Position numbers and translations under genes: made by a program. A stretch of 52,751 nt of DNA, from the IMG/VR virus record IMGVR_UViG_3300032579_000020, positions 1-52,751 of that record, one strand, 5' to 3'. Each line of letters opens with the position of its first letter. The first letter of the stretch is position 1. The stretch comes from a virus. Shown in pieces: positions 11,696 through 42,800 of the stretch. The notes beneath the pieces were generated by a model, which saw only the letters and a program-made list of their open reading frames with translations, was not told where the DNA came from and did not search any database.

Positions 11696-11868
11696 AGAAG
11701 TCGTGCTACAACTGCAAAAACCAGGAGTGTGCGTTTATCGGAAGGGGGCCGCTTCGGTGTAAGGATTGGAAAAACCCAAAGTGCAAGGGCTGCTCAGGCG
11801 GCGAAGGCAACTTCTGCCCTGACTGCCTGAGCAAGTCGAGCGTTAAGGCGGTTTCGACGCTCAAATGA
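11692..11868 (+). CDS. Cys-rich zinc-binding protein, 58 aa
   Basis: Starts MKKSCYNCKN and carries CYNC, a lone C, RCKDW, CKGC and CPDC, giving nine cysteines in 58 residues. This suggests two zinc sites. It is held between ATGA overlaps in the micro-gene operon. Function is unknown. Confidence 0.6.
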   Translation: MKKSCYNCKNQECAFIGRGPLRCKDWKNPKCKGCSGGEGNFCPDCLSKSSVKAVSTLK

Positions 11869-12173
11869 TGAAGCAACTGCTAGTCCGCGAAGCGCTCAAA
11901 AGCCCATGCCGCTACCGTGTCGCCGCGATTGGATTAAACCGTCGCGGCGTTGTCGTCTGTCAGGCCCACAACATGCCGAGGATGAACTATCCCGGCGGTG
12001 GGCTTCATGCAGAGATAAACCTGCTACGCAAGAACTGCAACATCTCTTCGATTCTCCTTGCTCGTGTATCGAAGACCGGGCTTCTGTGTCCAATCGAGCC
12101 GTGTAAAGCTTGCTCTAAGCTTCTTCACAAGCTTGGCATTAATGTGTACAAGCTACAACAATTTCGCCGCTAA
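11865..12173 (+). CDS. Minimal cytidine-deaminase-fold protein, 102 aa
   Basis: The zinc-dependent deaminase motifs are both present: H48-A-E50 in GGGLHAEINLL, and C75-P-I-E-P-C80-K-A-C83 (the P-C-x2-C motif). In this family H and the two Cys bind zinc, and E shuttles the proton. At 102 residues it is shorter than dCMP deaminases (about 150-180) and also lacks an obvious extra dCMP-binding insert, so the substrate (free nucleoside, nucleotide or nucleic acid) is unknown. An alternative in-frame start is the second Met. Confidence 0.8.
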   Translation: MMKQLLVREALKSPCRYRVAAIGLNRRGVVVCQAHNMPRMNYPGGGLHAEINLLRKNCNISSILLARVSKTGLLCPIEPCKACSKLLHKLGINVYKLQQFRR

Positions 12174-12603: not shown

Positions 12604-12672
12604 ATGACAATACTCGAATGGATGGGCGTCGCTGCAATGGCGGCGCTTCTTCGTTGGTCGGTGAAGCAATGA
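12604..12672 (+). CDS. Possible 22-aa leader peptide
   Basis: MTILEWMGVAAMAALLRWSVKQ followed by TGA, which overlaps the ATG of the next gene as ATGA. The product is amphipathic or membrane-like. No clear ribosome site is seen, so it may act only to bring ribosomes to the downstream start. Confidence 0.35.
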   Translation: MTILEWMGVAAMAALLRWSVKQ

Positions 12673-13001
12673 AGCGCATCGCCTGCTACGGCTCCCTCAA
12701 GAAAGGCTTCTGGAACCACTCGCGCTTTGGTAATATGACATTCGTCAGGAACTACACAATCAATGGCGTGCAGTTGTATCTTAGCTATGCTCCGTATCCG
12801 TTTGCCATTCAGAACGGCGGCTCCGTTGATGTGGAAATCTATGACGTTGACGAGAAGCTGTACGATATGCTGGACATGATGGAAACCGGAGCTGGCTATC
12901 ACGCAGTCACCATCGGAGACGCCGTGATTTGGGTGTACGACAATCCGCCAACCGGCTCAAAGAAGTTTGAGGGAACAAACTGGAAAGGAGAGCATCTGTG
13001 A
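12669..13001 (+). CDS. AIG2/GGCT-like (gamma-glutamylcyclotransferase fold) protein, 110 aa
   Basis: The N-terminus has ACYGSLKKGFWNHSRF, the family's Y-G-S-L loop that holds the gamma-glutamyl substrate. EIYDVDEKLYDML and GYHAVTI match later strands and helix. The catalytic Glu of the family would be expected in the segment around DMMETGAGYH. Such enzymes release gamma-glutamyl or similar amide-linked groups as cyclic products. The same fold recurs in phage amidoligase clusters, where it is thought to trim or undo amide links; here it opens such a cluster. ATG 12669 is chosen over an upstream ATG because the domain begins here. Confidence 0.72.
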   Translation: MKRIACYGSLKKGFWNHSRFGNMTFVRNYTINGVQLYLSYAPYPFAIQNGGSVDVEIYDVDEKLYDMLDMMETGAGYHAVTIGDAVIWVYDNPPTGSKKFEGTNWKGEHL

Positions 13002-13393
13002 GACTGACAAAGAAACGACTGCACCACGCGAACGACATTGTTGATTGCTGGTCTTCATACAATTATGCGCCAAGCCTTCCGTTCATATGCGCGTATGTAC
13101 AGTACGCATCCGGTGTAGAGCCGACCAACAAAGCTGCGAAGGAAATCGCGCAGAGGGTCGAGCGATATATGTGGGAGTCGAAGCAGTTTTGTGTTGAGTA
13201 TTGCAACCTCACCAAGATGAATGTGTTTTCGCTTTATGGCAGGCGTGATTGCGACCCTGTGTTCGACACGGTATCGTCGTACCCATGGACTGGCGTATCC
13301 AAGAACCGCGGTAAGTGGGGTCCACTAAGTAAAGACGACCTAGAATGCTTCAAGTACTGCCTTTTGGAGAACCGTGACAAGATTCGACGCTGA
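12998..13393 (+). CDS. Hypothetical protein with a YPWTGVSKN motif, 131 aa
   Basis: GTG start at a GTGA overlap with the AIG2-like gene. The protein is Cys-, Tyr- and Trp-rich. Its C-terminal 35 residues (YPWTGVSKN, then WGPL and DL) are clearly similar to the C-terminus of the 165-residue product at 15981-16478, so the two are paralogues or share a domain. No known family is recognised. A terminator follows. Confidence 0.7.
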   Translation: MRLTKKRLHHANDIVDCWSSYNYAPSLPFICAYVQYASGVEPTNKAAKEIAQRVERYMWESKQFCVEYCNLTKMNVFSLYGRRDCDPVFDTVSSYPWTGVSKNRGKWGPLSKDDLECFKYCLLENRDKIRR

Positions 13394-13420
13394 CGAGCCT
13401 TGGTATCTACCGGCTCTTTC

Positions 13421-13451
13421 GACCATAGTCTTACTGGCTATGGTCTTTTTT
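13421..13451 (+). terminator. Strong intrinsic terminator
   Basis: GACCATAG (13421-13428) pairs perfectly with CTATGGTC (13438-13445), followed by six T residues and then GTTTT. It ends the operon before the split tRNA locus. Confidence 0.88.
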
Positions 13452-13472
13452 GTTTTCTGGAAGTGAAGAATT

Positions 13473-13506
13473 GTACCTATAGCTCAACTGGACCGAGCGC
13501 GGTTAT
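13473..13506 (+). tRNA. 5' half of a tRNA (acceptor, D arm, start of anticodon stem)
   Basis: GTACCTA-TA is followed by a canonical D arm, GCTC-AACTGGACC-GAGC, with the conserved GG in the loop, then G and CGGTT. No 3' half follows here; the sequence runs into the end of an antisense HNH gene. Six of seven acceptor bases pair with CGGGTAC at 14138-14144, allowing one wobble, about 600 bases downstream, where a T arm and CCA are found. Confidence 0.5.
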
Positions 13507-13982
13507 CGCGGCAGATTGTCAAACTCCCAATGACAGTTTGGGCAAAGCTGTATTATGTTTTGCGGTGAGTTCACCTCTGAAAGAATTGCAGTGTCAGGGA
13601 ATGAGTTAAGCGGCTTTATATGGCACAGCTCCACGTGCTTATCATATCCACACTTAGCGCAGGGTAGAAGCTTTAGGTCTTTGTTCCATTGTCTAGACAT
13701 CTGCCTAACCTGAGCGTGAACCCACGAACCATGACGCCCAGATAGGTGTAGCGCCGTCCTGTATTGCCCTATAGTCCTGTTCTTTATCTTCCTGTCTAGG
13801 TATTCACGTTGGCACTTGTCACACCTGCTGTGTTTAAACGAGCTTCTCTGACTTCCGCACACAGAGCAAGGGCGAACAAGCTTTCTCTTCGGGAAAAGAA
13901 CATTGTTATATTTAGCGGAGCACGATCTGCAACAAAACGATGGATTGCGCGTCTCTAAACCACAGCACTTACACTTATTCAT
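13503..13982 (-). CDS. HNH endonuclease inserted antisense in a tRNA locus
   Basis: This 159-residue protein has an N-terminal zinc finger (CKCCG, CCRSC), a second Cys pair set (CSVCG, CDKC) and the HNH core: CAKCGYDKHVELCHIKPL, then N-x2-N-I-I-Q-L-CPNCHWEFDN. It is the only minus-strand gene within the rightward arm. Its 3' end overlaps the tRNA 5' half, and its 5' end lies 11 bases from the next tRNA-like element. The position and orientation suggest a free-standing homing endonuclease that landed in a tRNA cluster. Confidence 0.88.
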   Translation of the reverse strand: MNKCKCCGLETRNPSFCCRSCSAKYNNVLFPKRKLVRPCSVCGSQRSSFKHSRCDKCQREYLDRKIKNRTIGQYRTALHLSGRHGSWVHAQVRQMSRQWNKDLKLLPCAKCGYDKHVELCHIKPLNSFPDTAILSEVNSPQNIIQLCPNCHWEFDNLPR

Positions 13983-13992
13983 AGATACTCCC

Positions 13993-14069
13993 GCGTCTGT
14001 ACCAGTCCGTTCTCCTAAAGCGGAAACTGTAACCGGATTATGCAGGTTCGATTCCTGTCAGACGCGCCA
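13993..14069 (+). tRNA. D-armless tRNA-like element, possible tRNA-Arg(CCU)
   Basis: GCGTCTG (13993-13999) pairs perfectly with CAGACGC (14059-14065), followed by a discriminator G and encoded CCA. The T arm is GCAGG-TTCGATT-CCTGT. CCGTT-CTCCTAA-AGCGG (14007-14023) is a proper anticodon arm with U33, anticodon CCU and A37. Only seven bases (TACCAGT) lie where the D arm should be, while the region before the T arm is 18 bases. CAGT (14003-14006) could extend the anticodon stem by pairing with ACTG (14026-14029). Total length (77) is normal, so parts seem rearranged rather than lost. Function as a tRNA is uncertain. Confidence 0.45.
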
Positions 14070-14104
14070 TTATAATAGCATTCTATGTTAATTCGGTCAA
14101 CAAC

Positions 14105-14148
14105 AATGCGTATTCGAGTCGCAAGTTCAATTCTTGCCGGGTACGCCA
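14105..14148 (+). tRNA. 3' half of a tRNA (T arm, acceptor, CCA)
   Basis: A perfect T arm GCAAG-TTCAATT-CTTGC (14121-14137) is followed by CGGGTAC, a G and CCA. No normal 5' part lies immediately upstream. It matches the orphan 5' half at 13473 in the acceptor stem and, with one mismatch, in the anticodon stem (CGGTT with ATTCG). Locally GTATTCG (14110-14116) could also pair with the acceptor to make a mini-helix. Confidence 0.45.
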
Positions 14149-14160
14149 ACTAGTAGAACT

Positions 14161-14232
14161 ATGATTCCATTCATCGTCATCATGCTGGTCATCTACTTCG
14201 TTCTTGTTTGTGAACACGGAGACAATGTATGA
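14161..14232 (+). CDS. Membrane micro-protein, 23 aa
   Basis: MIPFIVIMLVIYFVLV followed by a short acidic end (CEHGDNV). Its TGA overlaps the next ATG (ATGA). Likely a one-helix peptide or a leader for the next gene; ribosome site is weak. Confidence 0.4.
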   Translation: MIPFIVIMLVIYFVLVCEHGDNV

Positions 14233-14501
14233 AGGCAAAGAAGAACAAACGCTGGACAATCAAGCACCAAGAAGACGACTCGTTCAAGCTGTCTCCGCAT
14301 AAGTCGCTGCCGTATCGAGACGGCAAGACACTTGACTGCATCGTAATCAAGAAGGAAGACTCTCTTCGCCATGCAATCATGGAGAAGATTTACAACGAGC
14401 GTGCTGCGGAACACAAGATTCCGGTATTCTTCGAGACGTTCAGGTTTCAGCGCGGGAGCGTTGAGTACGATCTTTGCGTCGCGTGTTGGGAGATTTTATG
14501 A
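14229..14501 (+). CDS. Hypothetical protein, 90 aa
   Basis: Starts MKAKKNKRWTIKHQEDD, a basic N-terminus, then a helix (SLRHAIMEKIYNERAAEH) and a beta-rich C-terminal half ending CVACWEIL. Linked by ATGA overlaps to both neighbours. Function is unknown. Confidence 0.65.
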   Translation: MKAKKNKRWTIKHQEDDSFKLSPHKSLPYRDGKTLDCIVIKKEDSLRHAIMEKIYNERAAEHKIPVFFETFRFQRGSVEYDLCVACWEIL

Positions 14502-14926
14502 ATACACCGAACAGATTCAGATTTAGGGCGTTTGACACTAAGAACAAGCGCATGGTCGAGATTAAAGAAGCAAAAAGCAATACCTCTCTTATTGCTATGT
14601 GTTCTTTCGGCAATCAGGTTGGGTTCATAAACGCAGACGGCTCAACGTTTTGGAGTCCATTCTGCGTGATGATGCAAAGCACCGGCCTATCCGACAAGAA
14701 CGGCAAGGAAATATTCGAGGGTGACATCGTTAGTGTTGACGGGTTTGAGCCAAATCGAATGCTGGTAGAGTGGGTTGAGAGCGCGTGGTGTATGACTCAC
14801 CCGTCACTAAACATGCCGATTGAGTTTACGTTCTTAGAGGACAGCACTGGCAAGCAGTCTGTGGTTGTCGGGAATATCCACGAAAATTATGAGCTTTTGA
14901 AAGGAACAAATGCGAGTATACATTGA
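14498..14926 (+). CDS. YopX-family protein, 142 aa
   Basis: RFRAFDTKNKRM at the start, VMMQSTGLSDKNGKEIFEGDIV in the middle and VVVGNIHENYELL at the end are the three hallmarks of the phage YopX family. The family forms beta-barrel-like assemblies and is common in phages of many hosts; its role is not established. I chose ATG 14498 at the ATGA overlap. Confidence 0.88.
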   Translation: MNTPNRFRFRAFDTKNKRMVEIKEAKSNTSLIAMCSFGNQVGFINADGSTFWSPFCVMMQSTGLSDKNGKEIFEGDIVSVDGFEPNRMLVEWVESAWCMTHPSLNMPIEFTFLEDSTGKQSVVVGNIHENYELLKGTNASIH

Positions 14927-15506
14927 TGGTGACGGGGTTCGGCACGTATCTCACCTGCCTGACGGCGAGAACGAATACGAGGAACAGTTCTTTAAGCCAG
15001 CGCGGCGTCCTCGCTTCACGGAGCGTGGCTACCGTATGTTTTGGGGCGGTGCGGACATCAACCCGAAGCTGTACGGAGAGAAGGCGCAGAAGGAAACACA
15101 CTTCTCGCTTGATGCTGACAGGCAAGACCTTGCAACGTATCGCAAGTGCATTGACCTAGACCTTGGCGCTGTTGGCATATGCCGTGGTTGCCAGTTCCTT
15201 TGGGCAATGTCAGGTGGTAGGTTGATGCAGGACATCGTTCCGCGCCATCCGTCGCCGCATGGAGTCAGGGGTACTGTTGACTTCTTCGTGAACAGCTACC
15301 ACCATCAAGGCTGCATTCTGACCAACGGAAAGCCGCCTGATGGTTTGGAGGTTCTTGCAACGCACGGAGACATCGTTGAGGCGTACGCCGGAACCAACCA
15401 TGATGGAGTTCGCGTCATGGCCGTGCAGTGGCACCCCGAAATGCTGCATGATAACTTTGCTTGCTCTCGCTGGTTTGACAAGAAAATAAAGGAGATGTTC
15501 GGATGA
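14910..15506 (+). CDS. Class-I glutamine amidotransferase-like hydrolase (peptidase C26 type)
   Basis: The 198-residue protein has GGADINPKLYGE, the nucleophile elbow GIC91RGC, the NSYHHQ motif and QWH175PE177, matching the Cys-His-Glu triad of the class-I glutaminase fold and, in particular, the gamma-Glu-X hydrolases (PuuD-like). These cut gamma-glutamyl amides or release ammonia from Gln. It lacks a synthetase partner domain. With the AIG2-like gene before it and the amidoligases after it, it may recycle or trim amide-linked products. It overlaps the YopX gene by 17 bases. Confidence 0.85.
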   Translation: MRVYIDGDGVRHVSHLPDGENEYEEQFFKPARRPRFTERGYRMFWGGADINPKLYGEKAQKETHFSLDADRQDLATYRKCIDLDLGAVGICRGCQFLWAMSGGRLMQDIVPRHPSPHGVRGTVDFFVNSYHHQGCILTNGKPPDGLEVLATHGDIVEAYAGTNHDGVRVMAVQWHPEMLHDNFACSRWFDKKIKEMFG

Positions 15507-16006
15507 ACGGTTCAGTATTCGGAGATAATGTTGTTGCACCCAAGGAAGGCGACATGGTGATGACAAAAACGGCAAATGGCTCATGCACTCACCTTGAGCT
15601 GTACGGATTTTGGTCGGTTAAAGGTTCCCAAGGTTGGAAAAAGATACCGGAAGACAAGAAGATGGTTGACTTTGAAGCGCGAAGACTTGATACAGCAGAG
15701 CAGCTTCTTGGGCTTCAATGTTTTAGCGGAAGCACCAAAATATATGCAGATAAAGATACGCCAGCATCACGCTGTGGATGGCTTGGCTACAAGATAATCT
15801 CCTGCCTAGTAACGGAAGAACAGAATATGCAGGCCATCCTTGAGGACCTAGGGTTCAAGACAGGCTTCGTTTCTGGAACTGGACAGAACACAATGCACCC
15901 AGGAACTACACTGATTCTGATGGCCGCTGACCCTGCCGTTCTCCACAAGCGGTGCCTAGAAGTGACAAGTAAAGGAGTTTATGTCAAAAAAGATAAAGCT
16001 ACCTGA
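15503..16006 (+). CDS. Hypothetical protein, 167 aa
   Basis: Starts MNGSVFGDNVVAPKEG at an ATGA overlap. The middle is mixed alpha/beta (EEQNMQAILEDLGF, TTLILMAADPAVLHKRCLEV). No motif is recognised. It overlaps the next gene by 26 bases. Location inside the amide-bond cluster suggests a role there, as inference. Confidence 0.7.
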   Translation: MNGSVFGDNVVAPKEGDMVMTKTANGSCTHLELYGFWSVKGSQGWKKIPEDKKMVDFEARRLDTAEQLLGLQCFSGSTKIYADKDTPASRCGWLGYKIISCLVTEEQNMQAILEDLGFKTGFVSGTGQNTMHPGTTLILMAADPAVLHKRCLEVTSKGVYVKKDKAT

Positions 16007-16478
16007 GAATCCTCCGCACAAATACGCCATCTTCGTATGGCGCACAAAGCTCGGACGCCACGGACTAACGCTGCCAATGCTGGCGGCGTTTTCTCTTTGG
16101 TACAAAGGTGGTAACTTCGAGGACATCGAAGAGGTCCGCAAAGAGGCGATGCTGATCGGTGACGAGATGTACGAGCATCCTGATTGCGCGTTTCCTGTTT
16201 GCAGGAGAAATGAAAAGCGCGGAAAGATTGGTCCGGGATTTGATGTTGTTGGTGTTGACCCAGTTCCGACCAGAATCCACCACTTCACATGCGGGCGCAT
16301 AGGCGAGCTTGTGTTTGCCCTGAACACTGGCGGTATTCCGATACAACGCAGGCTGGCAATGCCTCGCTATCCTTGGACTGGTGTCTCAAAGAACAACGAC
16401 GCGTGGGGTCCGCTAACTGCGTGGGACTTGACGTTCTTCCGTTGCGTCAAACACTTCATGGAGAAAGGAAGCATGTAA
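15981..16478 (+). CDS. Hypothetical protein with a YPWTGVSKN motif, 165 aa
   Basis: AAGGAG lies upstream within the preceding gene. The N-terminal region is helical and basic; the middle has CAFPVCRR and HHFTCGR, possibly zinc-binding. The last 40 residues (YPWTGVSKN, WGPL, DLTFF) match the C-terminus of the 131-residue product at 12998. Its stop overlaps the next start (TAATG). Confidence 0.7.
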   Translation: MSKKIKLPENPPHKYAIFVWRTKLGRHGLTLPMLAAFSLWYKGGNFEDIEEVRKEAMLIGDEMYEHPDCAFPVCRRNEKRGKIGPGFDVVGVDPVPTRIHHFTCGRIGELVFALNTGGIPIQRRLAMPRYPWTGVSKNNDAWGPLTAWDLTFFRCVKHFMEKGSM

Positions 16479-16702
16479 TGGCCGGTATACGCAAGTTCTT
16501 CGGCGAGGTTGACGAGAAGACGAACGAAGTGAAAGGCGCATTTCGTTTCGGCGCTGTTACCTTCTATCAATACTGTCTTCGCCACATCGAGGGTTTCTTC
16601 CAATGGCGTGAAATCAAATATCACGGTGAAATCGTGCTATGGCCGCACATCATGGGCAAGCCGCTGGACTATGACAAGGACTTATTTGGGAGCAACCAAT
16701 GA
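16478..16702 (+). CDS. Hypothetical protein, 74 aa
   Basis: Starts MAGIRKFFGEVDEKTN. Aromatic-rich (FYQYC, FFQWREI, WPHIMG) with no recognised domain. Joined to both neighbours by overlaps. A longer in-frame extension to 16289 lies wholly inside the previous gene and is rejected. Confidence 0.65.
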   Translation: MAGIRKFFGEVDEKTNEVKGAFRFGAVTFYQYCLRHIEGFFQWREIKYHGEIVLWPHIMGKPLDYDKDLFGSNQ

Positions 16703-16920
16703 AAGTATATCGCAATCTTGTCGTCAGCGTCATTAAGACAGTGGATGGCGTTGCGATGGTGCATGACGGCAGCGGGAACGTATTCGAGGTCAATGAAAAG
16801 GAAATCATTGCATACCCCGAGGCAGAACTTGCTTCATGTGTAGAGCGCGATATGGCCTGCACATACTGCCCTCATAACAAAGACGGGTGTACGCGTGTCA
16901 AAGAAAAGAGCTTTGCATGA
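16699..16920 (+). CDS. Hypothetical protein, 73 aa
   Basis: The first half is an all-beta barrel-like pattern (VSVIKTVDGVAMVHDGSGNVFEV). The second has CVERDMACTYC and a later C, possibly a metal site. ATGA overlaps on both sides. Function is unknown. Confidence 0.65.
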   Translation: MKVYRNLVVSVIKTVDGVAMVHDGSGNVFEVNEKEIIAYPEAELASCVERDMACTYCPHNKDGCTRVKEKSFA

Positions 16921-17315
16921 TATGGAAAACAGGTGAACCCGGCTCGAACTGCTCTAAGTGTGGCGGGAAAGTAGAGGGGCTTCTTGTTGCATCTCAGGGA
17001 ATAATTCGCACCTGCGCCGGATGTTTCATCGAAATCTCGCCTGATGGCCCAATAGCTTGGGAGGCGGCTAATTTCTTCGGGTGCTCTGAAGACAAGTCTA
17101 TTGAGTTTGCTGAACATATCATAAGCGAGCTTGAGACGTATGGAATAATTTTGGGGCGCAGAGAGAGGCTGTGCCCTATTTGCTTTGGTTCTGGAAAGAT
17201 TTATCAGGGCCAGAAATGCAGCCTGTGTAGCGGCAGTGGAACGTTGGACTGTAAGGCGTGCGGAAACAAGGGTTTTAATACTGTGGGGCAAAAATGCCCT
17301 ATCTGCAATCGGTAA
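16917..17315 (+). CDS. DnaJ-type zinc-finger protein, 132 aa
   Basis: It opens with a ribbon (CSKCGGK, CAGC) and ends with repeated CPICFGSG, CSLCSGSG, CKACGNKG and CPIC, the C-x2-C-x-G-x-G zinc repeats of DnaJ. No J domain is present. Such stand-alone repeats bind unfolded peptides or act as adaptors; a substrate-carrier role for the ligases encoded next is possible but unproved. ATG 16917 comes from the ATGA overlap. Confidence 0.75.
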   Translation: MIWKTGEPGSNCSKCGGKVEGLLVASQGIIRTCAGCFIEISPDGPIAWEAANFFGCSEDKSIEFAEHIISELETYGIILGRRERLCPICFGSGKIYQGQKCSLCSGSGTLDCKACGNKGFNTVGQKCPICNR

Positions 17316-17325
17316 GAGGGAAAAG

Positions 17326-18480
17326 ATGAAGAAAAACAAGAAGGTTCTGACGCGTGAGCTGGCTAAGTTGGCGCAAAATCACGGCAATTTATTGATGGGT
17401 GGTGATGTGGAGGCGTTCGCCATCGGTCCTGATGGTGTCGTTATCCCAGCGGATGCCGCCGGGTTCTTCCCGTACTCGCGTGAATACGTCAGGCCTGTTG
17501 GCGAAAGCCAATATCACAAAGTATTTGCGGATGGTGTTCAGGTTGAACTCAATTTCACTCCCGCAACTTGCCGTGACGGCATCGTTCTCTCGATGAATCG
17601 ATCAGTCAATGAGTGTATTCAGTACGCAAGTCGCAAGAGGGCGGCCAAGATGCACGCGCTGTCGGCGGTCAAGATGACTCAGGCGCAGATTGACGTTGGT
17701 CAATACCTGTCCCATGTCATGGGCTGCAACCCGGACTTCTCGGCGTACACCGACACCCCAAACCGTCCCATTGAGGACTACGCTAATCATCCGATTCGCA
17801 CCGCTGGTTATCATGTGCAGTTCGGCAAGTGTGTGAATCCGGAATACGAAAAGAAGTTCGCCAAACTGTGCGACAGAATCGTTGGACTCGTTGCCATGTG
17901 GGGCGACCGCGATGAGTCGCACAGGCTCCGTAAGGGCGACGGCGTTGGACTCGCTGGCTGCTACCGCAATCATCCGGCAGATGCAAACCCACGCTTCGAG
18001 TACCGCACCTGCGGTTCGTTCTGGCTCCGTAAGGCGGCTCTGTCTCACGCGCTGTTCGGAATGGCGCGGATGGTGCATCACATTTGGGAAAGCGGCATGG
18101 CTGACGTTGTGATTGACCAGATCGAAGACGACGAAGCCCGTGCAGCCATCAACAACTGCGACAATGATGCCTGCAAGGCGCTGTTTATGCGGCTGCTTCC
18201 GTTCCTGTCTGATGTGGCGGTCAACATCAAGGACTGGCAGTTGCCAATTTCAAGTTGCAATAACACGGCCTACGCCTCGTACACACCCATACGAGACAAG
18301 GAGCGTACATTCCAGCTTGCTGCGCTGGTGTGGATGCTGGACGGAAACATGAAGTTCGATTCAGAACTGAACGACTTCACCGCCGGAGATTACTATGGCT
18401 GGAATAACTACTCGCACGCGCAACTTAGATACAATGCCGCCTATCGCAAGTTCGAGACCGAGTTCATGGCGAATCTGTAA
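17326..18480 (+). CDS. phiEco32-like COOH-NH2 ligase, type 2 (glutamine-synthetase-like fold)
   Basis: The 384-residue protein starts MKKNKKVLTRELAK after GAGGG. GGDVEAFAIGPDG is the first metal- and ATP-binding strand of this family (commonly G-x-D-P-E-F). Later come VELNFTPA, GYHVQFGKC, GVGLAGCYRNH and ANPRFEYRTCGSFW, matching the order of acidic, His and Arg active-site strands in the phiEco32-like COOH-NH2 ligase domain. These ligases use ATP to join a carboxylate to an amine. The substrate is unknown. A longer in-frame start at 17185 overlaps the zinc-finger gene and is rejected. Confidence 0.8.
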   Translation: MKKNKKVLTRELAKLAQNHGNLLMGGDVEAFAIGPDGVVIPADAAGFFPYSREYVRPVGESQYHKVFADGVQVELNFTPATCRDGIVLSMNRSVNECIQYASRKRAAKMHALSAVKMTQAQIDVGQYLSHVMGCNPDFSAYTDTPNRPIEDYANHPIRTAGYHVQFGKCVNPEYEKKFAKLCDRIVGLVAMWGDRDESHRLRKGDGVGLAGCYRNHPADANPRFEYRTCGSFWLRKAALSHALFGMARMVHHIWESGMADVVIDQIEDDEARAAINNCDNDACKALFMRLLPFLSDVAVNIKDWQLPISSCNNTAYASYTPIRDKERTFQLAALVWMLDGNMKFDSELNDFTAGDYYGWNNYSHAQLRYNAAYRKFETEFMANL

Positions 18481-18496
18481 AAAGACCGGAGGCAGT

Positions 18497-18721
18497 ATGA
18501 AGGAACTCGTTCTGCATATGTACAGAACGCTTCTGAGCAAGAAGTTCAGGAGCGAGTCTCAAGCAAAAGAGGCTTTGACAGCTCGCATCCGTAACGGTCA
18601 GACACGCGAGGAAGCCATCACATCAATGTACGTATCGTATGTTGATGTGTTGCTGGGGATGAAGGCACCACACGCAGACGACCAAGAGGATGTGCTTCAA
18701 CTTGAAAATCGACAGAATTAA
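18497..18721 (+). CDS. Hypothetical protein, 74 aa
   Basis: CGGAGGCAGT precedes the ATG. The product is helical: MKELVLHMYRTLLSKKF, then a turn and EEAITSMYVSYVDVLL. It lies between the two ligases and overlaps the second by 32 bases. Unknown; a small adaptor is possible. Confidence 0.65.
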   Translation: MKELVLHMYRTLLSKKFRSESQAKEALTARIRNGQTREEAITSMYVSYVDVLLGMKAPHADDQEDVLQLENRQN

Positions 18722-20141
18722 GTGCAAGTGCAACTCGCCAGCAATAGGGTTTGTGCTAGATGTGCCGATCTGCAAGCAATGCTTCCGTCGTGACTACACA
18801 AGGTTCGGTGAAGGCTTCGAGCTTCGCAAGAACGTAGTCATTGAAGAGGGCGGAAGCCTTCGCAGGCGCGACGAGGTGCACGAACTCATAGACCCAAAGA
18901 CCGGGCGAAAGATTTACTCACGCAACCGATACGAGATTCGGGGGCAAGGGTTTGTGTCAGAGAAAACTCTGACAAGCGCTGTTGAAAGTCGAGAGGTTAT
19001 TGAAACCCACAGAGGCTTTTATCGAGCAGGAGACCTTGTGTACGACGACTTCGGAAGACCGTTTCCTAAGGAGTATGCTCTAAAGTATTCCCGTAAGTGC
19101 GCGTCTTGTGGCAAGGCGTACACAGTTTCAGGTGGTCAGCAAACCATGTCGGAGACAATGTGCTTCGAATGCCAAGTAAAGAAAGGATGCTCGTGCCAGA
19201 ACTGCGGAAAGCCTTTCACGCCAAACCCTCAGATTAGATCAATGTTAATGCTTGGCATTGACAAGTACATCTATGGTTACTGTCCTGCGTGTGTAGAGAA
19301 AAGCCTGCCGTTTGTGTATCACGGAAAGAAGGAGGTAGAAGGAACAGGCAGGACCGTAGGCGTTGAGGTAGAGTGCGAGCCTACGGTTGGCTCCCAGCTT
19401 GAACTTGCCATGTGGGGCGACAAGGAGCATATGGTGACAGGGATTACCGACGGCTCGCTACGAGGGAAGTTCCCGTGCGAGTTTGTGTCGCCAATTCTGC
19501 ACGAGTCGAACTATGAATGGTGGCTTGGCGAGTTCGGCAAGCGTCTGAACGCAGTTGTTTATATGCGCTGCGGGCTGCACATCCACATCGGAACGCAGGA
19601 GTTCGGGTGGTTCGAGATGAACAACCTGATGCGCTACCTGAAGAAGTACGAGCAGTTCTTCTTTAGCGTGGTGTCTCCGTCTCGCAGGCTTCCAGAGGTT
19701 GTGAACGGAAACAACGCAGGTCTTCCGGTTACACTGCCAGACATCCCTGCATTCCATAGCCGAGAAGATTTGCTGGACTGGTGCTATGGCAGGTCTAGGG
19801 TTAAGCAGAGCATTGGGAGTAACATTCACAAGACCAAGCGGTGCAACGACAGGGGTGCTAAGTACGATGGCAACCTGAACAGGTATCAGTGGGCCAACTT
19901 TCACGGGCACTGGTTCAAGGGTGCTATTGAAATCAGAATTCATCAAGGCACATCCAACGTCCAGAAGATTGCTAACTGGATGGAGTTCTGGTTCAACATC
20001 ATTCCTCACGCTGCCCTGCCGGAAGAGAAGTGGAAGCACCCGCTAAAGGTTATTCCGAAGCACCTAGAGGTGTACTACCTCGATAGAATTGAACGCTTTA
20101 AAAAGCTGGCTAAATCTGGCCTAGTTCAACGTTTGCAATAA
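18690..20141 (+). CDS. Amidoligase_2-family ligase with N-terminal zinc ribbons
   Basis: This 483-residue protein has three Cys-pair sets in the first 200 residues (CKCNS with CKQC; CASCGK with CFEC; CQNCGK with CPAC), then GRTVGVE226VE228CEPT, which carries the acidic metal-binding pair, ITDGSLRG, CEFVSPIL, GLHIHIG, and AIEIRIHQGTSN near the end. This is the amidoligase core, related to glutamate-cysteine ligase and glutamine synthetase. The zinc-rich front is an unusual addition that may recruit a protein or nucleic-acid substrate. It overlaps the previous gene; a TTG start ten bases on is possible. Confidence 0.82.
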   Translation: MCFNLKIDRIKCKCNSPAIGFVLDVPICKQCFRRDYTRFGEGFELRKNVVIEEGGSLRRRDEVHELIDPKTGRKIYSRNRYEIRGQGFVSEKTLTSAVESREVIETHRGFYRAGDLVYDDFGRPFPKEYALKYSRKCASCGKAYTVSGGQQTMSETMCFECQVKKGCSCQNCGKPFTPNPQIRSMLMLGIDKYIYGYCPACVEKSLPFVYHGKKEVEGTGRTVGVEVECEPTVGSQLELAMWGDKEHMVTGITDGSLRGKFPCEFVSPILHESNYEWWLGEFGKRLNAVVYMRCGLHIHIGTQEFGWFEMNNLMRYLKKYEQFFFSVVSPSRRLPEVVNGNNAGLPVTLPDIPAFHSREDLLDWCYGRSRVKQSIGSNIHKTKRCNDRGAKYDGNLNRYQWANFHGHWFKGAIEIRIHQGTSNVQKIANWMEFWFNIIPHAALPEEKWKHPLKVIPKHLEVYYLDRIERFKKLAKSGLVQRLQ

Positions 20142-20158
20142 GAAAGCAGGGTACTTAA

Positions 20159-21712
20159 GTGTGTGGAATTTGGGGCGGATTTAACGGCGAGACCTATAGG
20201 AATATGGTTCTCGCTATTCTGAACATTGAGCGTGGACGCGATTCGTTTGGCTTCACTACGGAGAACGAGAAGGGAGACGGGTACGACATTGGTCACGGAC
20301 TAGGCTCAATCGTTCAGGCAATGAAGGATGAGGGGTTCCCGATGGATGTGTATAGCAAGAAGATGTTTCTCGGGCACACCCGAAACTCGTCGGTTGGTAC
20401 GGTTACTCTTAAGAATGCCCATCCCTTCACCAGCGGGCACATTACTGGTGCGCACAATGGAAGGGTTGCAAACTTCTGGATTCTAAAGAACGAATACAAA
20501 GACCAGCACAAGGAGGTTGACGCCTTCGACGTTGACTCTGAAATCATCTTCTGGCTTCTGAACGAGTTTGGCGTGAATGCGCTGGCTCGGCTTGAAGGAC
20601 GCATCGCTTGCTGGTGGGTGGACGACAGGAAGCCGGGCAAAGTGTTTGCGTGGATTTGGAATCAGGACTTCGCTGTGGCATTGAAGCCATACCCTGCGTT
20701 CTCGTCTGACGACAACCATCTGCGCGTTGCTGGATTCGATGACATCAAGAAGCTGGAAGACACTGGTCAGTTAATCAAGTTCGACATGAAGGAGGCAGAC
20801 AAGGGATTTACTCAGGTGGCGTTTATACCGGGGCACACGGCTCCCATTGTCACGGTCAAAGACAATCGCATTTCATGGCCTTCTGATACAGGTTTCATAC
20901 AGTATCCAAATACCAAGAAGTCCCTTAATGATAAAGAGATGACCTGCATTGGCAGGGTGTGGGACGTGGCTTCGCAGGACTGGATAAAGCCTAAGGCGTT
21001 TTTGAACGCAGTCAATGACGACGGAGTTACAGACAGCGACGAGAAGCATCGCGTTATACTGTCGTCGATACATATCGGAGCCAGCGTGTATCAGTGCGCC
21101 TCGTGCCATGAGATGGTTACAAAGAAGCACACCACACAGAACGCTGCGTGTCAGGACATCCATAGCGGTTGCGGCGGAGTATGCGAGCAGCCAATAGCTG
21201 GCGTCATGTATGACCTAAGACAAGTAGCCTCGTCTGAGATTGCCAAGTTTGTTGGCAAGGTTGAAACAAGGTTTCATCCTCGGGAGATTCGTGCTTTTAT
21301 AAAGAATGATAGAACTATTCTTACCCAAAAGGAGTCAAAACAAACTGAGGCAACCGCAGGGAAACAACTGCACCTTCCAATCGGGGCAGAGATTAGGAGC
21401 ATCTGCGACATCTGCCTTGGTTGCCAGCTTAAGACGCCAGACCTTGTTCTAGCTTCGTGTGCCACGTTCCGACACGTTGACGGAGCCAGTATGTGCAAGA
21501 TGTGCATTTCAGATTGCCAGCTAATTGGAAAGGGACACAGCATCGTCGGGTGCAGGACGTTCAGAGCTAGGATAACTCAGGAGCGACCTCAGTTGAAGGA
21601 GCTGCTCGGAACGACCGTGGATGGATGGGAAAACCCATGTGATAAATGCGCCATTGAGTACTGCTATAAACGTGGAAAGGTATTGGACTGTTCGGAGGCT
21701 ACACCGTTCTAA
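20159..21712 (+). CDS. Class-II glutamine amidotransferase (Ntn hydrolase), 517 aa
   Basis: A GTG start puts Cys at position 2 (M-C-G-I-W-G-G-F), the N-terminal nucleophile after Met removal. GHTRNSS, HPFTSGHITGAHNGRVANF and EIIFWLL match the GATase-II fold seen in PurF, GlmS and AsnB. The region after about residue 240 carries many Cys pairs (CASCHEM, CDICLGCQ, CKMCISDC, CDKCAIEYC) and no synthetase domain. It would supply ammonia from Gln to a partner such as the ATP-grasp or amidoligase encoded beside it. Its stop overlaps the ATP-grasp start (TAATG). Confidence 0.87.
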   Translation: MCGIWGGFNGETYRNMVLAILNIERGRDSFGFTTENEKGDGYDIGHGLGSIVQAMKDEGFPMDVYSKKMFLGHTRNSSVGTVTLKNAHPFTSGHITGAHNGRVANFWILKNEYKDQHKEVDAFDVDSEIIFWLLNEFGVNALARLEGRIACWWVDDRKPGKVFAWIWNQDFAVALKPYPAFSSDDNHLRVAGFDDIKKLEDTGQLIKFDMKEADKGFTQVAFIPGHTAPIVTVKDNRISWPSDTGFIQYPNTKKSLNDKEMTCIGRVWDVASQDWIKPKAFLNAVNDDGVTDSDEKHRVILSSIHIGASVYQCASCHEMVTKKHTTQNAACQDIHSGCGGVCEQPIAGVMYDLRQVASSEIAKFVGKVETRFHPREIRAFIKNDRTILTQKESKQTEATAGKQLHLPIGAEIRSICDICLGCQLKTPDLVLASCATFRHVDGASMCKMCISDCQLIGKGHSIVGCRTFRARITQERPQLKELLGTTVDGWENPCDKCAIEYCYKRGKVLDCSEATPF

Positions 21713-22518
21713 TGAAAAAGATTGTAAAGTATAACTGTATCGAGACGATGAAGAAGATCATCGCTCACATGAAGCAGAAGGTTGATGTTGTTGATTCGCT
21801 GAACGGTGATGCCTTGACTCATCTGATACGTTATGGCAACACTCAACCGTTCGACAACGCTGACCTGACGTATAACTGGCAGTCAGCTATTCTCAACGCC
21901 GCCGACAAGATTGACGCTCGCCGACTGATGAGGGCTGCTGGTGTTATGATTCCGCGCACAGTCCTGCCTGACGATGATGTTGGCATTATGCAACTCATCG
22001 GAAAGTGGATTGCTCGCCCGTCAGAACACTTCGCTGGCTCCAACTTCGAGGTGATTGTTGGGCGCAAGAAGGCACGCGAGTTCTTGGACAACGGCTGGTA
22101 CCTGTCGAAGATATTCAAGAAGGAGCGCGAGCTTAGGATTCACTGCGCCCACGGCAGGGTGCTGCTGATTCACGACAAGGGCATTGATGGCCGCACACTC
22201 AACAGCAACACTAACACAACGGCAGACTGGTCAGTACTTGAGTGGAAAGATTATCCGTTGCTGGCGTGTCAGCAAGCGTTGAAGGCTTGCGATGCCTTGG
22301 GACTGGATTGGGGCGGAGTGGATGTTCTAACGCACGGAGACGACTGTGTTGTGCTCGAAGTCAACACTGCTCCGTCTGTTCCGGGTCAGATAGGCCCGAA
22401 GAAATATGCTCGCTACTTCGACTGGTTGCTGTCGTCTGACAAGCGCCGCGAGCATTACGATTGGAAGAAAATCAAAACAGGCCATGATATGCCTTGGAGA
22501 CACGAAGAGCTAAAATGA
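21712..22518 (+). CDS. ATP-grasp ligase, 268 aa
   Basis: ADKIDARRLMRAAGVMIPRT is the entry to the ATP-grasp domain, WIARPSEHFAGSNF matches the flexible ATP-binding loop, ERELRIHCAHGRVLLIHDKG the middle strands, and VLEVNTAPSVPGQ the metal-binding end with the E-V-N motif. RimK-like and D-Ala-D-Ala-like enzymes of this fold make peptide or amide bonds through acyl-phosphates. It is stitched to the GATase-II gene before it and the HELVH gene after it, which supports a shared pathway. Confidence 0.85.
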   Translation: MKKIVKYNCIETMKKIIAHMKQKVDVVDSLNGDALTHLIRYGNTQPFDNADLTYNWQSAILNAADKIDARRLMRAAGVMIPRTVLPDDDVGIMQLIGKWIARPSEHFAGSNFEVIVGRKKAREFLDNGWYLSKIFKKERELRIHCAHGRVLLIHDKGIDGRTLNSNTNTTADWSVLEWKDYPLLACQQALKACDALGLDWGGVDVLTHGDDCVVLEVNTAPSVPGQIGPKKYARYFDWLLSSDKRREHYDWKKIKTGHDMPWRHEELK

Positions 22519-22862
22519 TTAAGTCGTTCACACTTTTAGGTAAGACGTTCCGCGTAATCAATGACGACAAGCATCTAAAGAAAATCGGACTACTTGGACT
22601 ACTACGCTTCGACGAAGGCATCATATACCTACGAAATGAAGCATTCCAAGAACCATTGCACCAGACACACCAGCACACGTTCCTTCACGAACTTGTGCAC
22701 GCCGTCTTGTATTCAATGGGAGAGGCCGAGCTATGCAAGAACGAGAAGTTCGTTGATGTATTCGCCGGTCTATTGCAGCAGTTTCATAACACAAAAGTAA
22801 ATGGAGTAAAACATGCCAAGGTACTTTTACAGCGAACGACACGCGGTAGTATACAGAACTGA
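22515..22862 (+). CDS. Zinc metallopeptidase-like protein (HELVH), 115 aa
   Basis: H58-E-L-V-H62 in TFLHELVHAVLYSMG is the zincin motif; a downstream Glu/Asp-rich helix (KFVDVFAGLLQQF) could supply the third ligand. Size and motif recall ImmA/IrrE-like and small phage zincins. It may process the product or carrier of the ligases, or cut a host repressor; both are inference. ATG 22515 comes from the ATGA overlap. Confidence 0.72.
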   Translation: MIKSFTLLGKTFRVINDDKHLKKIGLLGLLRFDEGIIYLRNEAFQEPLHQTHQHTFLHELVHAVLYSMGEAELCKNEKFVDVFAGLLQQFHNTKVNGVKHAKVLLQRTTRGSIQN

Positions 22863-36868: not shown

Positions 36869-36897
36869 ATTATGCCAGATTAAGGCACTAGTGTCAA
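36869..36897 (-). promoter_or_regulatory. Near-consensus sigma70 promoter for the tail fibre operon
   Basis: On the minus strand, TTGACA (36892-36897) and CATAAT (36869-36874) have a 17-base spacer. The -35 element overlaps the stop codon of the 2075-residue gene. It would drive the fibre gene and the genes to 32014. Confidence 0.75.
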
Positions 36898-39800
36898 GGT
36901 ATCAGGTGTGATGCGCCGGTAAGCTTGTTCATAGAACCAAGCGGGATGCCAAACGTTTCGCTGAACAGATCGGTTGAGCTGTTAGTGATGCGCGTTATAG
37001 CCTTCCTGCGAGCTTCATCATGGGCCATCCACTGCTTTCCTGTCTTCTGATTCTGGTTCTGTAGGTTGTTCTTTAGGCGTACCGTATCTGTAAGTATGCG
37101 AGCTAGGTTGCTGAACTGAGAACCAAAGGCCATGTCCTGACCTACGCGGTTCTGCGCGCCAGCCATGTATGAGGCATCGCCGGTCTCTAGAGCTGTAAAG
37201 AACCCTGAAATCATTCCAGAGAACATACGGCCAGCCGGTAGCACGTCTGCACTTGAGGCGGCCCAAGTCCACTTGAACCTAGCCACTGCGTCCTTTAGGT
37301 TCTTAGCTTCCTTCTTCTCGTCTTCGTGACCATAGTTCTGTGCCACCCAATTATAGTACTTCTCTTTTGAGAAGTCTGCGCCAGCTAGGATAGCGCCTGA
37401 AGCTACAGCTCCGAATGCTATGGTCTTCACGAAGTCAATCTGCGCGTTCACGTCTTTAGGATGTCTAGCAAGCGTCATTCCGGCGCGCTGCATCTGGTTA
37501 AACATAGCGAGAGGAACGTGTTGATAGCGAGTAGCAAGCCGTCCGGCAGTACCGCGAGATGCCAAATCAACCTTCCAGCCGCGCTCGCCTACAGGTTGCA
37601 GCTTGAACAGCGCCTCTGATGCGGCGTAGTTGACCGCAGCGATCTTATCGTCGCCTTTAAGTTCAGGGTGCATACGCTCAACGAACGAGGCTGCGGCCGT
37701 GATTGTCTGCTTAACCGTGTAGTTGTCAGACCAGCGAATAAGCGCAGTAGAAGCATTACGCATCTTGTTGAGTGCGCTTGTGTCGCCTAGGACGGCCCTA
37801 GCGCCCTGCTGCTCCATGTGCTCGAACAGTTCAGGCGTCTGCATCTGCGACTCTAGGCGGTACTTTAGGTACGCGCCACCTGAGCCATTAAGATAGGTAT
37901 TGATGTCTTGTTGAGGCAGAGAACGAAGCGACTTCATCCAGTCACGCACGGAGAACATAACCGCGATGTTAGGCGTGTTAGCAAACTGCTTGATAGCAAC
38001 GAATGGGTTAGAGAAGCGTGCCACATCTTGGAACCTGAACAAGTTGTTTACGAGCGGCAGGCCATTCTTGTCGTAGATGCCTTCTATGTTGGCTAGATGC
38101 CGCAAGAGTTGCTTTCGGTACTTATCGCCCATCTTTGTCTGTATTGCGTCAATCATTGACTTGTTGTTGATAATCCTGCGCCACTTCGATACCAACTGAG
38201 CATGACCCACGAAGTTTGACGACTCGTTAACCATGTTGTTGAACACAGAGAACGCGTTCTTGACCGTCATGGCGTTCGAGTTTCCGGTTCTTTCCTTGAG
38301 TGGATTCCAGTTGCCGAATCGGTTAAACATACCGTTATCAACCTCGCCGAACTGGTTCTTCATCTCTGGTGGGTGCGACACGAACCGACGCCAGTAGTTG
38401 TCAATGCGCTTGAAGTCTTTCCCGTAGTATTCCTTTGCGATAGGCTCGATTAGCTCGCCCATCTTCTTGGTTACTTCCAGCATCTTGCGTGCGATCATAT
38501 CACCGTGGCTACCTGCCGCGTACTGCACCTGCTTCTCGAAAGCTGCGAAGTTCTTCTCTTTCTCTTCCTTGGTGAATCCGAAGATAACCTTCTTGCCTTC
38601 TTCGGTGGCAAATCCGTTGTTCTTGATAAAGTCTCTATCTGTAGCATTACGCATCTGGATAGCAAGGTTCAGGCGCTCTGCTTCTTGAAGCGAGTGCTGC
38701 TGATGATTGATAACTAGGTCAACCTTTCCCTTGTCGCCGTTCATCTGCTTCCATAGGCTACGAATCTCAGGGAAGATAGCCTTGGCGATATTCTGCACGT
38801 TAGATGCGCGAACGCCTGCATGAACCAAGTCTGTGCTTAGTTCCTTGCCCATCTCTTCACTGAGTCTAGCGAACGCTGTAGAAGCGTTGCTGTACGCGTT
38901 CAGGATGACGTTCTTGAGCTTGTGAACGTTGCTATGCTCAAGCATGGAGCCAACCTTGTCGGCGGCTACCGCTGTCTTCATGGCGTGTACAGCCCAATCA
39001 GGCATGGCGCTGTTAGAACCGAAGATGCGGTCAATAAGTTGCATGCGCGTCTTTACGCCTTCTAGGCTGATAGGCAGTCCGTTCTTCATCATACCAAGAG
39101 CCATATCGCGTAGCTTGCCATAGGAATGACCGATGGGGTCTTCGATGGCTAGGCGGCGAGCTTCTAGGTTGCTGGCTGCTGGATGAGTAGGCGATGCGTC
39201 TAGGTGCGGATTCTCAATCTTCGCATTCTCTAGCTCCTTCATCTTGTCATAGCTGAAGTCCGAGCGTGTGGACGCAAGCTTTACCATTGCTTCCAAAGAA
39301 GCACCAGCAGCGGTCTGCGACTTTGCAATAGAGTCCATCAACTCTGTAAGAGCGTTAGACTGCGGCAGACCGATAAGCTTGGCGATATGCTCCACCATTG
39401 CCTTGAATGCGTTGGCAACATTACCAAGCATCGTTGTAGGCTCTTTGATACTAGATAGGTAATCGTAGGCTTCTTTGTGAGTAAGGGCGTACGAAACGAA
39501 CTCCCACATGGAGCCGCGAACCTGAGCAGCGCCTTGCTTGTTACCGTGTTCATTCTCTAGCTTCAACGCTAGGTCTTCACGGTGAGCGCGCCACAGCTTC
39601 TCAAGCTGCTTCCATCCTGACTGTTGTTCTGGCGTTAGGCTTTCAAGGTTATGAATGCCCTGTAAAATTGCCTTGTGAGTAGCAGCGTGGATTGCCTCGT
39701 GTAAAGGAATCTCAGCGCCATGCTTCTCTAGGTAGTGCAGGTTAATCTCGATGCTGTTTAGTTTGCTGCGATATAGACCAGCAGAGCGATATGGGTCGTT

Positions 39801-42800
39801 TGTGTAAACAACGTCAATCTTGTCGGTTCCGGGGAGCTTGCCGAGAAGTTCCGCAAGCCTATTCATCATGTATCCGTGCTTCTTGTCTTTAGAAGCTTGC
39901 GCCAGAACGTCACGCAGCGAGCCGTGCTTAACCTCTCCGCCGATTGGAACGTTGAGTTTTGTTCCATCAGGAGCAACTACGTCTCGTGGCTTGACTATAG
40001 CGCCAGCAAGCTTCTCTCCAGACACAAGCTTAGGATTCTCACGCGATTTACGCAGTTCTTCTTTAACGGCATCCTGTAATGCGTTGATCTTCTCAACTGC
40101 TTTATCGAGTGTAATCTTCTCGCCAGTATATGGGTCTTTAAGCTTGCCCAAAACCGAACCCTTCTTGTTCTCGTTTTCTTTAAACCTATACGAGTCGTTT
40201 ACAACCTTCTCCCAAGCATCAAGCTGCTGGCGAGCGGTTGCAAGTGTTCCGTCTGCATTCTTTGGCGCTTCAACCTTCTTGAACTCAGCGTCTATCACTG
40301 GTTCCGTTTTATTCGGAAGTTGTTTTGGCTCTTCCTTAGCTGGCAGCTCGGCTTTCTTGCTCTTCTCGTATTCAGCCAGACGCTCATCAACGTGCTTGTA
40401 GAACTCAGCAAGTGCAGCCTTGCGCTGCTCTGGCGTCATCTTCTCTTTAGGGCTTCCAAGCTTCTCGGCAAACTCAGCCAAGAACTCACGACGCATATTA
40501 GCTACATCCTTGCCAGTAGACTTAATTCCGAGACGCTTTGTTACCGCCTCAATCCTCTGATCTACAGGGTCAACGATTGCTTGGATGTGGTCAGGAAGCT
40601 CTGTATTTGGTGCGGCTGCGTTTGGCGCGTCTGGAGTCGTGGTCATCTCTACCGAGTGACTCTTTGGCTCAGTACGGCCAGCTCGCTCTATATCAGCAAC
40701 GGCTAGCGCCTGCACTGTTCCGGTTGGCTCTAACTTGCCAGTTGGACCCTCTTTAGCGCGGCGAACCTTGACATAATCTCCGCGCTCGTTAGTCTCGCCA
40801 GTCATTATCCAAGGCGTTGTCTCGCCCTTCTTACCACTGGCTAGGTGAATCTCTCTGTCTGGTTCAATGGCTACGTCGCGCTCAACACCTTCGCCATCAC
40901 GCATCTTAACGTGAGTGCGAGCAGGTTTAACCGGAGATACAGGCTTCTTTGGAACAGTAACAGCAGGACCGGCGGCAGTACCACTTTCTGGCGGCTTCTT
41001 ATCCTTCGCCGCCTTCTCCTTAGCAGCCTTCTCGTTGGCGCGCTCTTGAGCCTTCTTGGACTTATCGAAGTCACGAGCCTGCTTCTTCTGATCGCGCTCG
41101 AAAGCAACTAGTTCTGGATGCGGCTTTACACCTGCAACGATCTTGGCGTAGTCTTTAAGCTTCGCCTCGTTTACGGTATCTTCAACCGGAGGCAGGTAAA
41201 GCTCTGGATGCTGCTTGTTAATCTCAGCACGCTGCTTGTTGTACTCAGCCATTACATCAGCGTGGTACTTCATCTTCTCTGGAATAGTAGCGTCTTGAGG
41301 CAGTGGTTTCCACTTGCCCATAGACTTAGCATCTCGACGCTCTGTATCCTTAGCTGCGGCTTCTTCTACAAATTGTGCTAGGCGACCTTCAGAGTGCTTA
41401 ACACCATGCTTGTCAGCAATGTCATTAAGCTCTAGCTGAATAGCCCGCTTGTTGTCCTTCCAGTCCATACCGGCATCAGCAAGCTCGGAAACGCGTGCAT
41501 CCGAATGAGCCTTCATCTCTTTCCAAGCGTTTAGCGAGGAATTAGTAGCATGAAGCTCCGCCTGCTGTGCTGCCTCTTCTGGCGTAGTATTGAAGAACTC
41601 GAACAGTCCGGCCTTGGACTTCTCGATAATGTTGACATCCTGCTGTCCAGTGATGTCTCGGAACTCCTGATTAATCTCGTCGCGCTTCTCTTTAATCTCG
41701 GAAGCCGTCATGTCGTCAAGATCAACCGGAGAAATCATGTGCTTCTCTCGAAGCATATTAATGGCGTTCTCGCTCTTTGTGGCGAGTTCATTCTGAGACT
41801 TAGCAACCTCTGCCGACTCAGTAACCTGACGCTTGCTGGTAGCATCAGCTTCCTTGGCAAGCTTAGTCTGCGCCTCACGAACCTCGCCTACACCACGAGC
41901 AACCCCACCAACAATACCCATGCCAAGTGCCATAGGAATAGAGTCCTTGGCTACCTGCCACTCACGCTGCACCAAGTCCCACCCCTCAAGTACGGCATAC
42001 TTCGGGTCGTTAAGCTTCTCAGAAGTAGCACCAATAACACCACGCTCGATGTCTCGCATCTTCTGCGTGCGCGAAGCATCGTTCATCTGCCAGCGTGAAG
42101 CTAGGTCAGACGCAACCATTGCGCCTTCCATCTTGGCTGCACCAGCTACGGTCTCTTTGAACGCGTTCTTGATTCCGTTCTTAACGCCAGCGCCAGCAGC
42201 CTCCATAAAGGCTGGCTTTAGATACTGCTTAAGAGCCTTAGGCATACCAACAGAGAACACGGATGCGCCCAATAGACCAGCGGTGTCCGTAGCGTGGTCT
42301 AGGATGTCCATATCCACGCCAGGGTTCTGCTTAATCATCTCAGTCTTGAGTTCTCCAGAGATTTGACGACCCCATGTGGCGTAGTTGATTACACCAGAAC
42401 CAACTATGTTGGCTGCATTGGCAACGCCATGAGCGCCCTTCCAGCCAAGCCTAGCTGCGTCCAGCATACCCTTCAATGTTCTGGTGGAGCGCGCAGCTTC
42501 AATAGCCGCAAGCGTTTCGCCGCTAAACTCTGCTGTGCCGGTTAGGTGCAGAGCCGCCTGAATCGCAGCTTCCTTACCAACCTCCATAGCCATAGACTTC
42601 AGAATTGTAGGATTTGCAGTCCCAAGGAAGAACTGCTTCATCATACTGTCTGCCTTGATCGGGTCGCTCTCCTGCATACTAACGTGTTTATCTGTTAGTT
42701 CTGCAATATACTTATGAAGCTCGCGCCGTTGTTCAGGGTCTTTAACGTTGTCAGCGATAGAGTTCTGCGTAGATGCAAGTAGGTCTGTTCCTTTAGAACG

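Follow-up and report, generated by a model that had tools for sequence, protein, structure and literature searches.

A divergent, intact-looking copy of the widespread phage amidoligase cluster in an IMG/VR virus record

Known amidoligase clusters and the present locus

Clusters of predicted amide-bond-forming enzymes are carried by phages such as LUZ24 and phiEco32, and the hypothesis that they yield a peptide- or metabolite-type product dates from 2009 (Iyer et al., cited by PMC10580990). In LUZ24 (Bruynoghevirus), gp16-gp22 encode, in this order, a COOH-NH2 ligase, a small gene, an Amidoligase_2 protein, a class-II glutamine amidotransferase (GATase-II) with a CxxC tail, another small gene, a RimK-like ATP-grasp ligase and a gamma-glutamyl cyclotransferase (GGCT). 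Here we describe a cluster of this kind in the IMG/VR virus record IMGVR_UViG_3300032579_000020, analysed over its whole 52,751 bases (“the window”), with enzyme genes spanning 12.7-22.9 kb (Table 1). A sequence-only reading had placed seven enzymes there that make, feed or cut amide bonds. Family searches of the window proteins recovered all seven where it had put them; six belong recognisably to their families and keep their catalytic residues, and the seventh, a metalloprotease, is a weak HExxH match. The kind of cluster is already known, and the window copy is, judged by sequence, very divergent and intact-looking. Our reading, to which we give an even chance, is that this divergent copy of a widespread phage cluster would carry out gamma-glutamyl or amide ligation followed by deglutamylation.

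Comparison of gene content showed the likeness to phiEco32-like clusters to be stronger than had been claimed, the same core being found in LUZ24, phiEco32, 7-11 and many others. The window keeps the core order of LUZ24 at about 19-24% identity. Unlike LUZ24, it has a Peptidase_C26 protein and an N-terminal Cys-rich extension on Amidoligase_2, whereas it has no gp17 homologue and its GGCT gene sits in a separate upstream unit. phiEco32 gp77-gp86 (Kuravirus) and the Grimontviridae (7-11, GAP52, BUCT695) have five core enzyme families of the window, GGCT too, together with a gp17-type gene and two further conserved genes upstream, but Peptidase_C26 was not found in their whole records; in phiEco32, the Salmonella phage 7-11, Zobellviridae and dozens of IMG/VR contigs the core is rearranged relative to the LUZ24 and window order. 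Exactly the six enzyme families of the window, with no gp17-like gene, occur in IMG/VR loci L018, L022 and L024-L026 (L047 is similar), although L018, L022 and L024-L026 have a different gene order and no Cys-rich extensions. Loci L027, L029, L043 and L085 have long COOH-NH2 ligases like that of the window, and L027 and L043 share the Cys-rich Amidoligase_2, yet Peptidase_C26 was not found in these four records.

In 7-11 and GAP52 an endolysin gene lies a few genes from the cluster, which would fit a modification of the cell wall or surface, where amino acids or amides are added to peptidoglycan or another polymer and superinfecting phages are blocked. Iyer et al. put this forward in 2009 (PMC10580990 cites them for phiEco32), and ATP-grasp and GCS-fold ligases do include peptide ligases of wall-like polymers (PMC4431377). 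However, the window cluster has no wall-specific enzyme, transporter or carrier, and no published test was found in the literature searched; we consider wall modification rather unlikely, while still a serious candidate.

Ligases and amidotransferase of the core

The sequence-only reading had named loss of catalytic residues as the observation that would count against it. In our alignments, whose reference proteins came from 16 phage records and in which catalytic positions were assigned from general knowledge of each family, the residues were kept, except for two family-invariant positions of the COOH-NH2 ligase. This ligase retains D27, E29, D69, E74, C134, R158, H163, R214, E225 and R227, but H165, the second His of the HxH motif, is replaced by Q and K52 by R, both positions being invariant in 16/16 reference phages. 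The second His is not known to be essential. The protein has about 95 additional C-terminal residues and groups in the ligase tree with the long ligases of L027, L029 and L085 (support 91/93), with the window on a long branch. It adjoins Amidoligase_2, as expected for a cluster of the phiEco32/LUZ24 type.

Amidoligase_2 keeps the motif residues of GxExExE, DxSLR, HxH and GSIEIR (GSIEFR in the family), and all 19 of the 19 invariant positions of a 15-sequence alignment. The Cys-rich extensions of this protein and of GATase-II had been presented as additions to the system. Both are real, but the GATase-II tail is usual in its family, with C419 and C422 conserved in 14/17 comparators and C449 in 13, and was rejected as a novelty; the Amidoligase_2 head is uncommon, being in none of the 16 reference phages, but occurs also in L027 and L043. 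GATase-II itself retains the C2 nucleophile, R75, the N100-G101 oxyanion residues and D126, and its profile matches GlmS and PurF structures. The ATP-grasp retains K66, E140, R142, K156, D204, E216 and N218; its nearest kin are L018-L026, at up to 36% identity. Both GATase-II and the ATP-grasp lie in the same gene run as the two ligases.

The AlphaFold model of the COOH-NH2 ligase (mean local confidence, pLDDT, 77.6; predicted template modelling score, pTM, 0.80) was matched by Foldseek in the PDB to YbdK, glutathione synthetase, plant glutamate-cysteine ligase and glutamine synthetase (E 3e-5 to 1e-3), and GshA was also matched. The Amidoligase_2 model is of low confidence (pTM 0.58), and its sole match below 1e-3 is YbdK (E 2e-4). 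Among the matches of the predicted ligase model are also the Pup ligase PafA and Dop, which may point to a host or virion protein receiving an amide modification, as a peptide tag. The profile of the ATP-grasp matches structures of RimK, its closest relative of solved structure and an enzyme that glutamylates ribosomal protein S6; moreover, the zinc domains of Amidoligase_2 and GATase-II could bind a macromolecule. Nonetheless, no small conserved Pup-like substrate protein is common to the clusters, and the gp17-like protein, present in most of them, is absent from the window. A protein tag is thus judged unlikely.

Gamma-glutamyl-cutting enzymes

The window genome holds both GGCT and Peptidase_C26. 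GGCT keeps the YGSL substrate loop (residues 7-10) and the catalytic-type Glu (METG, E72). The other protein had been called a class-I amidotransferase; an enzyme is indeed present, but it is nearer to gamma-glutamyl hydrolases, as its PF07722 and PF00117 E-values indicate, with PuuD-type and similar entries among its best NCBIfam and PDB matches. The Cys of GICRG, the SYHHQ motif and the His/Glu of WHPE are kept (motifs at residues 89, 129 and 174), and a class-I GATase role may still apply. At least one gamma-glutamyl-cutting family (GGCT or Peptidase_C26) is held by 59 of the 64 records with all four core enzymes, which are nearly all of the sampled records with ligase, Amidoligase_2, GATase-II and ATP-grasp.

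Distribution among phages

The COOH-NH2 ligase was found by tblastn in 233 phage records, and the same enzyme set in phiEco32, GAP52, 7-11, LAh_9, BUCT695, Zobellviridae and Rhizobium, Erwinia, Pantoea and Vibrio phages. IMG/VR was also searched by alignment, which gave 372 relatives in all and 80 further loci. Among 96 loci sampled through the ATP-grasp, where many contigs are fragments and counts are lower bounds, GATase-II occurs in 84, Amidoligase_2 in 74, the ligase in 70, the gp17-like gene in 58, Peptidase_C26 in 42 and GGCT in 41. All seven families were found in 8/96 loci and the window pattern, all but the gp17-like gene, in 6/96, one of which (L047) has a sub-threshold gp17-like match. 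The gp17-like gene of about 190 residues lies between the two ligases in 16/16 reference phages and is absent in a minority of IMG/VR loci; it is common in the cluster, not defining for it.

Could the window genes be a chance neighbourhood of unrelated auxiliary genes? The small, HExxH and DnaJ-type proteins, which have no kin near other clusters, would agree with this. For the enzyme core such grouping is refuted because the same core recurs in dozens of independent, unrelated phage records, and we find it hardly credible.

The window set is a mosaic by its sequence relationships, since the ligase (with L027/L029/L085) and the ATP-grasp (with L018-L026) have different nearest kin. No close phage relatives were found in IMG/VR single-protein scans (ligase, GATase-II, helicase) or by DNA in phage records, and the terminase reaches no more than about 25% identity with the listed phage records; on these comparisons the window phage is an orphan lineage. 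Its late block at 32-52 kb (- strand) has hardly any PHROG matches and includes a 2075-aa protein (36894-43121). A bacterial source was considered and rejected: 26 GTDB loci have ATP-grasp kin, mostly as lone RimK-like genes, and fuller clusters were seen only on short contigs of metagenome-assembled genomes, which may be phage.

Proposed mechanism

Gamma-glutamyl or amide ligation is favoured because glutamine/glutamate and amide bonds are the only linkage chemistry common to the families. GATase-II would cleave glutamine to ammonia and glutamate, and the two GCS-fold ligases would convert a carboxylate, probably the gamma one of glutamate, into an acyl-phosphate at the expense of ATP and then couple it to an amine. 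A further amino acid would be attached by the RimK-like ATP-grasp, probably glutamate, and GGCT and Peptidase_C26 would later strip gamma-glutamyl, which would have served as a carrier or protecting group. This logic is known from the butirosin (BtrG) and putrescine (PuuD) pathways. The product, formed at an early stage of infection for takeover or rival exclusion, would be a small amide or peptide or else a host molecule that carries an amide modification.

When a LUZ24-genus phage was put through directed evolution, both its amidoligase gene and its GATase-II gene acquired missense changes, and two isolates from a single lineage had them in the same genes (PMC11450229). This suggests that the cluster genes matter for infection; the mutations do not indicate a specific role.

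That every reaction involves glutamate or glutamine would also suit an auxiliary nitrogen or glutathione metabolism, in which a raised turnover of glutamate, ammonia or glutathione would serve the replication of the phage. Such a role has been claimed for Phage-ZRK32, which has amidoligase, GATase, ATP-grasp and GGCT genes, but the evidence is growth promotion, not enzymology (PMC10945688). Moreover, two dedicated ligases and an ATP-grasp far exceed what turnover needs, and a host-like glutathione pair is lacking. We therefore regard nitrogen metabolism as distinctly unlikely.

Several observations weigh against ligation followed by deglutamylation. The window ligase has lost the family His165; the glycine loop of the ATP-grasp is unlike that of most of the family, its nearest kin L018-L026 differing likewise; no gp17-like gene was found among the small open reading frames (ORFs) of the window by hidden Markov model (HMM) searches and hhalign; and no biochemical product is reported for any such cluster in the literature searched. 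In addition, an alternation of GGCT and Peptidase_C26 was rejected as proof of one shared deglutamylation step, the Fisher test over the 64 records (p=0.002) giving p=0.47 after relatives were thinned at 50% identity.

Transcription units and doubtful members

The genes had been described as one mostly overlapping operon. This holds for 14229-22862, which is tightly packed (overlaps of 1-32 bases, gaps of at most 17), but the GGCT gene stands apart: its unit, 12669-13393, is followed by a strong terminator-like hairpin (13421-13445; 10-bp stem and T6 tail), and an HNH gene in antisense and a tRNA-like gene also come before the main operon. Elsewhere, a GIY-YIG-type homing endonuclease gene (907-1389, - strand) adjoins the terminase gene, and a small zinc deaminase (11865-12173, + strand; PF00383 3e-9, with a weaker Bd3614-like match, 6e-5) is encoded upstream of the cluster.

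The DnaJ-type protein and the small proteins, put forward as additions to the system, have no homologue in the 96 loci, and so nothing that ties them to it. As for the metalloprotease, an HExxH gene is where it was claimed, but the match is weak and no kin lie near other clusters, the weak homologues in L067 and L079 being about 9 kb from the clusters there. As homologues near other clusters are missing, membership of the small, DnaJ-type and HExxH proteins is unsupported. Two of the small proteins share a 29-residue YPWTGVSKN..WGPL..DL..F module (BLASTP 4e-9) and are otherwise different.

Table 1. Features of the locus, and related tRNA copies in other records
Feature	Position	Strand	Evidence or remark
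Gamma-glutamyl cyclotransferase (AIG2/GGCT), separate transcription unit	12669-13001	+	PF06094 4e-14; PDB 1v30 1e-13
Orphan protein with YPWTGVSKN..WGPL module	12998-13393	+	Module common to 15981-16478
HNH endonuclease gene	13503-13982	-	Antisense, between GGCT unit and main operon
Rearranged tRNA-Arg (CCT)	13993-14069	+	Encoded CCA
CCA-ended minihelix (acceptor and T-arm, no anticodon)	14107-14149	+	Directly after rearranged tRNA-Arg
Peptidase_C26 / class-I GATase-like gamma-glutamyl hydrolase	14910-15506	+	PF07722 6e-22; PF00117 3e-8; phrog_7218 5e-24
Orphan protein with YPWTGVSKN..WGPL module	15981-16478	+	Module common to 12998-13393
DnaJ-type CxxCxGxG zinc protein	16917-17315	+	PF00684 8e-4, below cut-off
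COOH-NH2 ligase, phiEco32 type, GCS/GS fold, 384 aa	17326-18480	+	phrog_3815 4e-22; PF14395 3e-4 (below cut-off)
74-aa ORF	18497-18721	+	At position of conserved ~190-aa LUZ24 gp17-family gene; not homologous (no HMM or hhalign match)
Amidoligase_2 with N-terminal Cys-rich extension (5 CxxC)	18690-20141	+	PF12224 1e-7
Class-II (Ntn) glutamine amidotransferase domain with Cys-rich tail	20159-21712	+	PF13522 3e-17
RimK-like ATP-grasp ligase	21712-22518	+	phrog_2599 7e-23; PF08443 2e-4
HExxH putative metalloprotease (HELVH at residue 58), doubtful member	22515-22862	+	PF14247 0.002; Pfam matches only weak, 2e-3 or worse
Rearranged tRNA-Arg copy	L040 3692-3773		Encoded CCA
Rearranged tRNA-Arg copy	L124 10526-10607		Encoded CCA
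Rearranged tRNA-Arg copy	L126 2710-2791		Encoded CCA
Rearranged tRNA-Arg copy	L127 3630-3707	-	Encoded CTA

tRNA-like genes beside the cluster

A tRNA-Arg lies between the HNH gene and the main operon. Its acceptor stem has 7 bp, its anticodon arm is of the Arg CCT type, and it has a T-arm and encodes its CCA, but a 4-bp D-type stem encloses the anticodon arm and the GG-containing, D-loop-like TAACCGGATTAT follows that arm. ARAGORN reported no tRNA in the window and missed all five rearranged copies known to us, whereas the Rfam tRNA model scored 13993-14066 at 32.8 bits (gathering 29) when this segment was searched alone, a hit missed by the fast whole-window scan. The four other copies, found by a pattern scan of IMG/VR, are all Arg TCT, and one of them (L040) was already in our sample. 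A covariance model built from three copies, with the window excluded, gave the window 68.8 bits (E 2e-17) and L127 64 bits, against at most 35 for ordinary tRNAs. Every one of the 21 pairs in the window copy is standard, and its enclosing stem shows covariation (CAGT/ACTG vs CTCA/TGAG); the rearranged fold is supported because stems covary across the five-member family.

A tie between this tRNA and the cluster was rejected, the rearranged tRNA being found also in phages where the cluster GATase-II was not; three of the five copies adjoin ordinary tRNA genes in such records. We regard its place beside the amidoligase cluster as coincidental, and the two are probably unrelated. The minihelix that follows it folds better than 198/200 shuffles and is possibly a decayed tRNA. 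Perhaps the rearranged tRNA-Arg, the minihelix or both, upstream of the main operon, could provide an aminoacyl-tRNA as the amino-acid donor of the cluster, giving an arginine-containing amide, but we think this very improbable.

Ordinary tRNA-Arg genes (mostly TCT) recur in or near clusters (L041, L061, L083, L003, L006, L028, L030, L039, L052), a raw recurrence uncorrected for background frequency. In L041, L061 and L083 the tRNA-Arg is flanked by Peptidase_C26 on one side and by the cluster genes next in line on the other, with a second ATP-grasp nearby.

Implications for phage biology

The cluster is common, as the number of phage records with its ligase attests, yet has no known product in the literature searched. 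By its terminase, the window phage is unrelated to LUZ24 and phiEco32, and a copy this divergent in such a phage shows the enzyme set passing from one phage lineage to another. The gp17-like gene is dispensable, and the ligases, the ATP-grasp, the enzyme that supplies ammonia and one or both of the gamma-glutamyl-cutting enzymes are usually retained. Knowing which parts are retained and which can be dropped narrows what an experiment must include.

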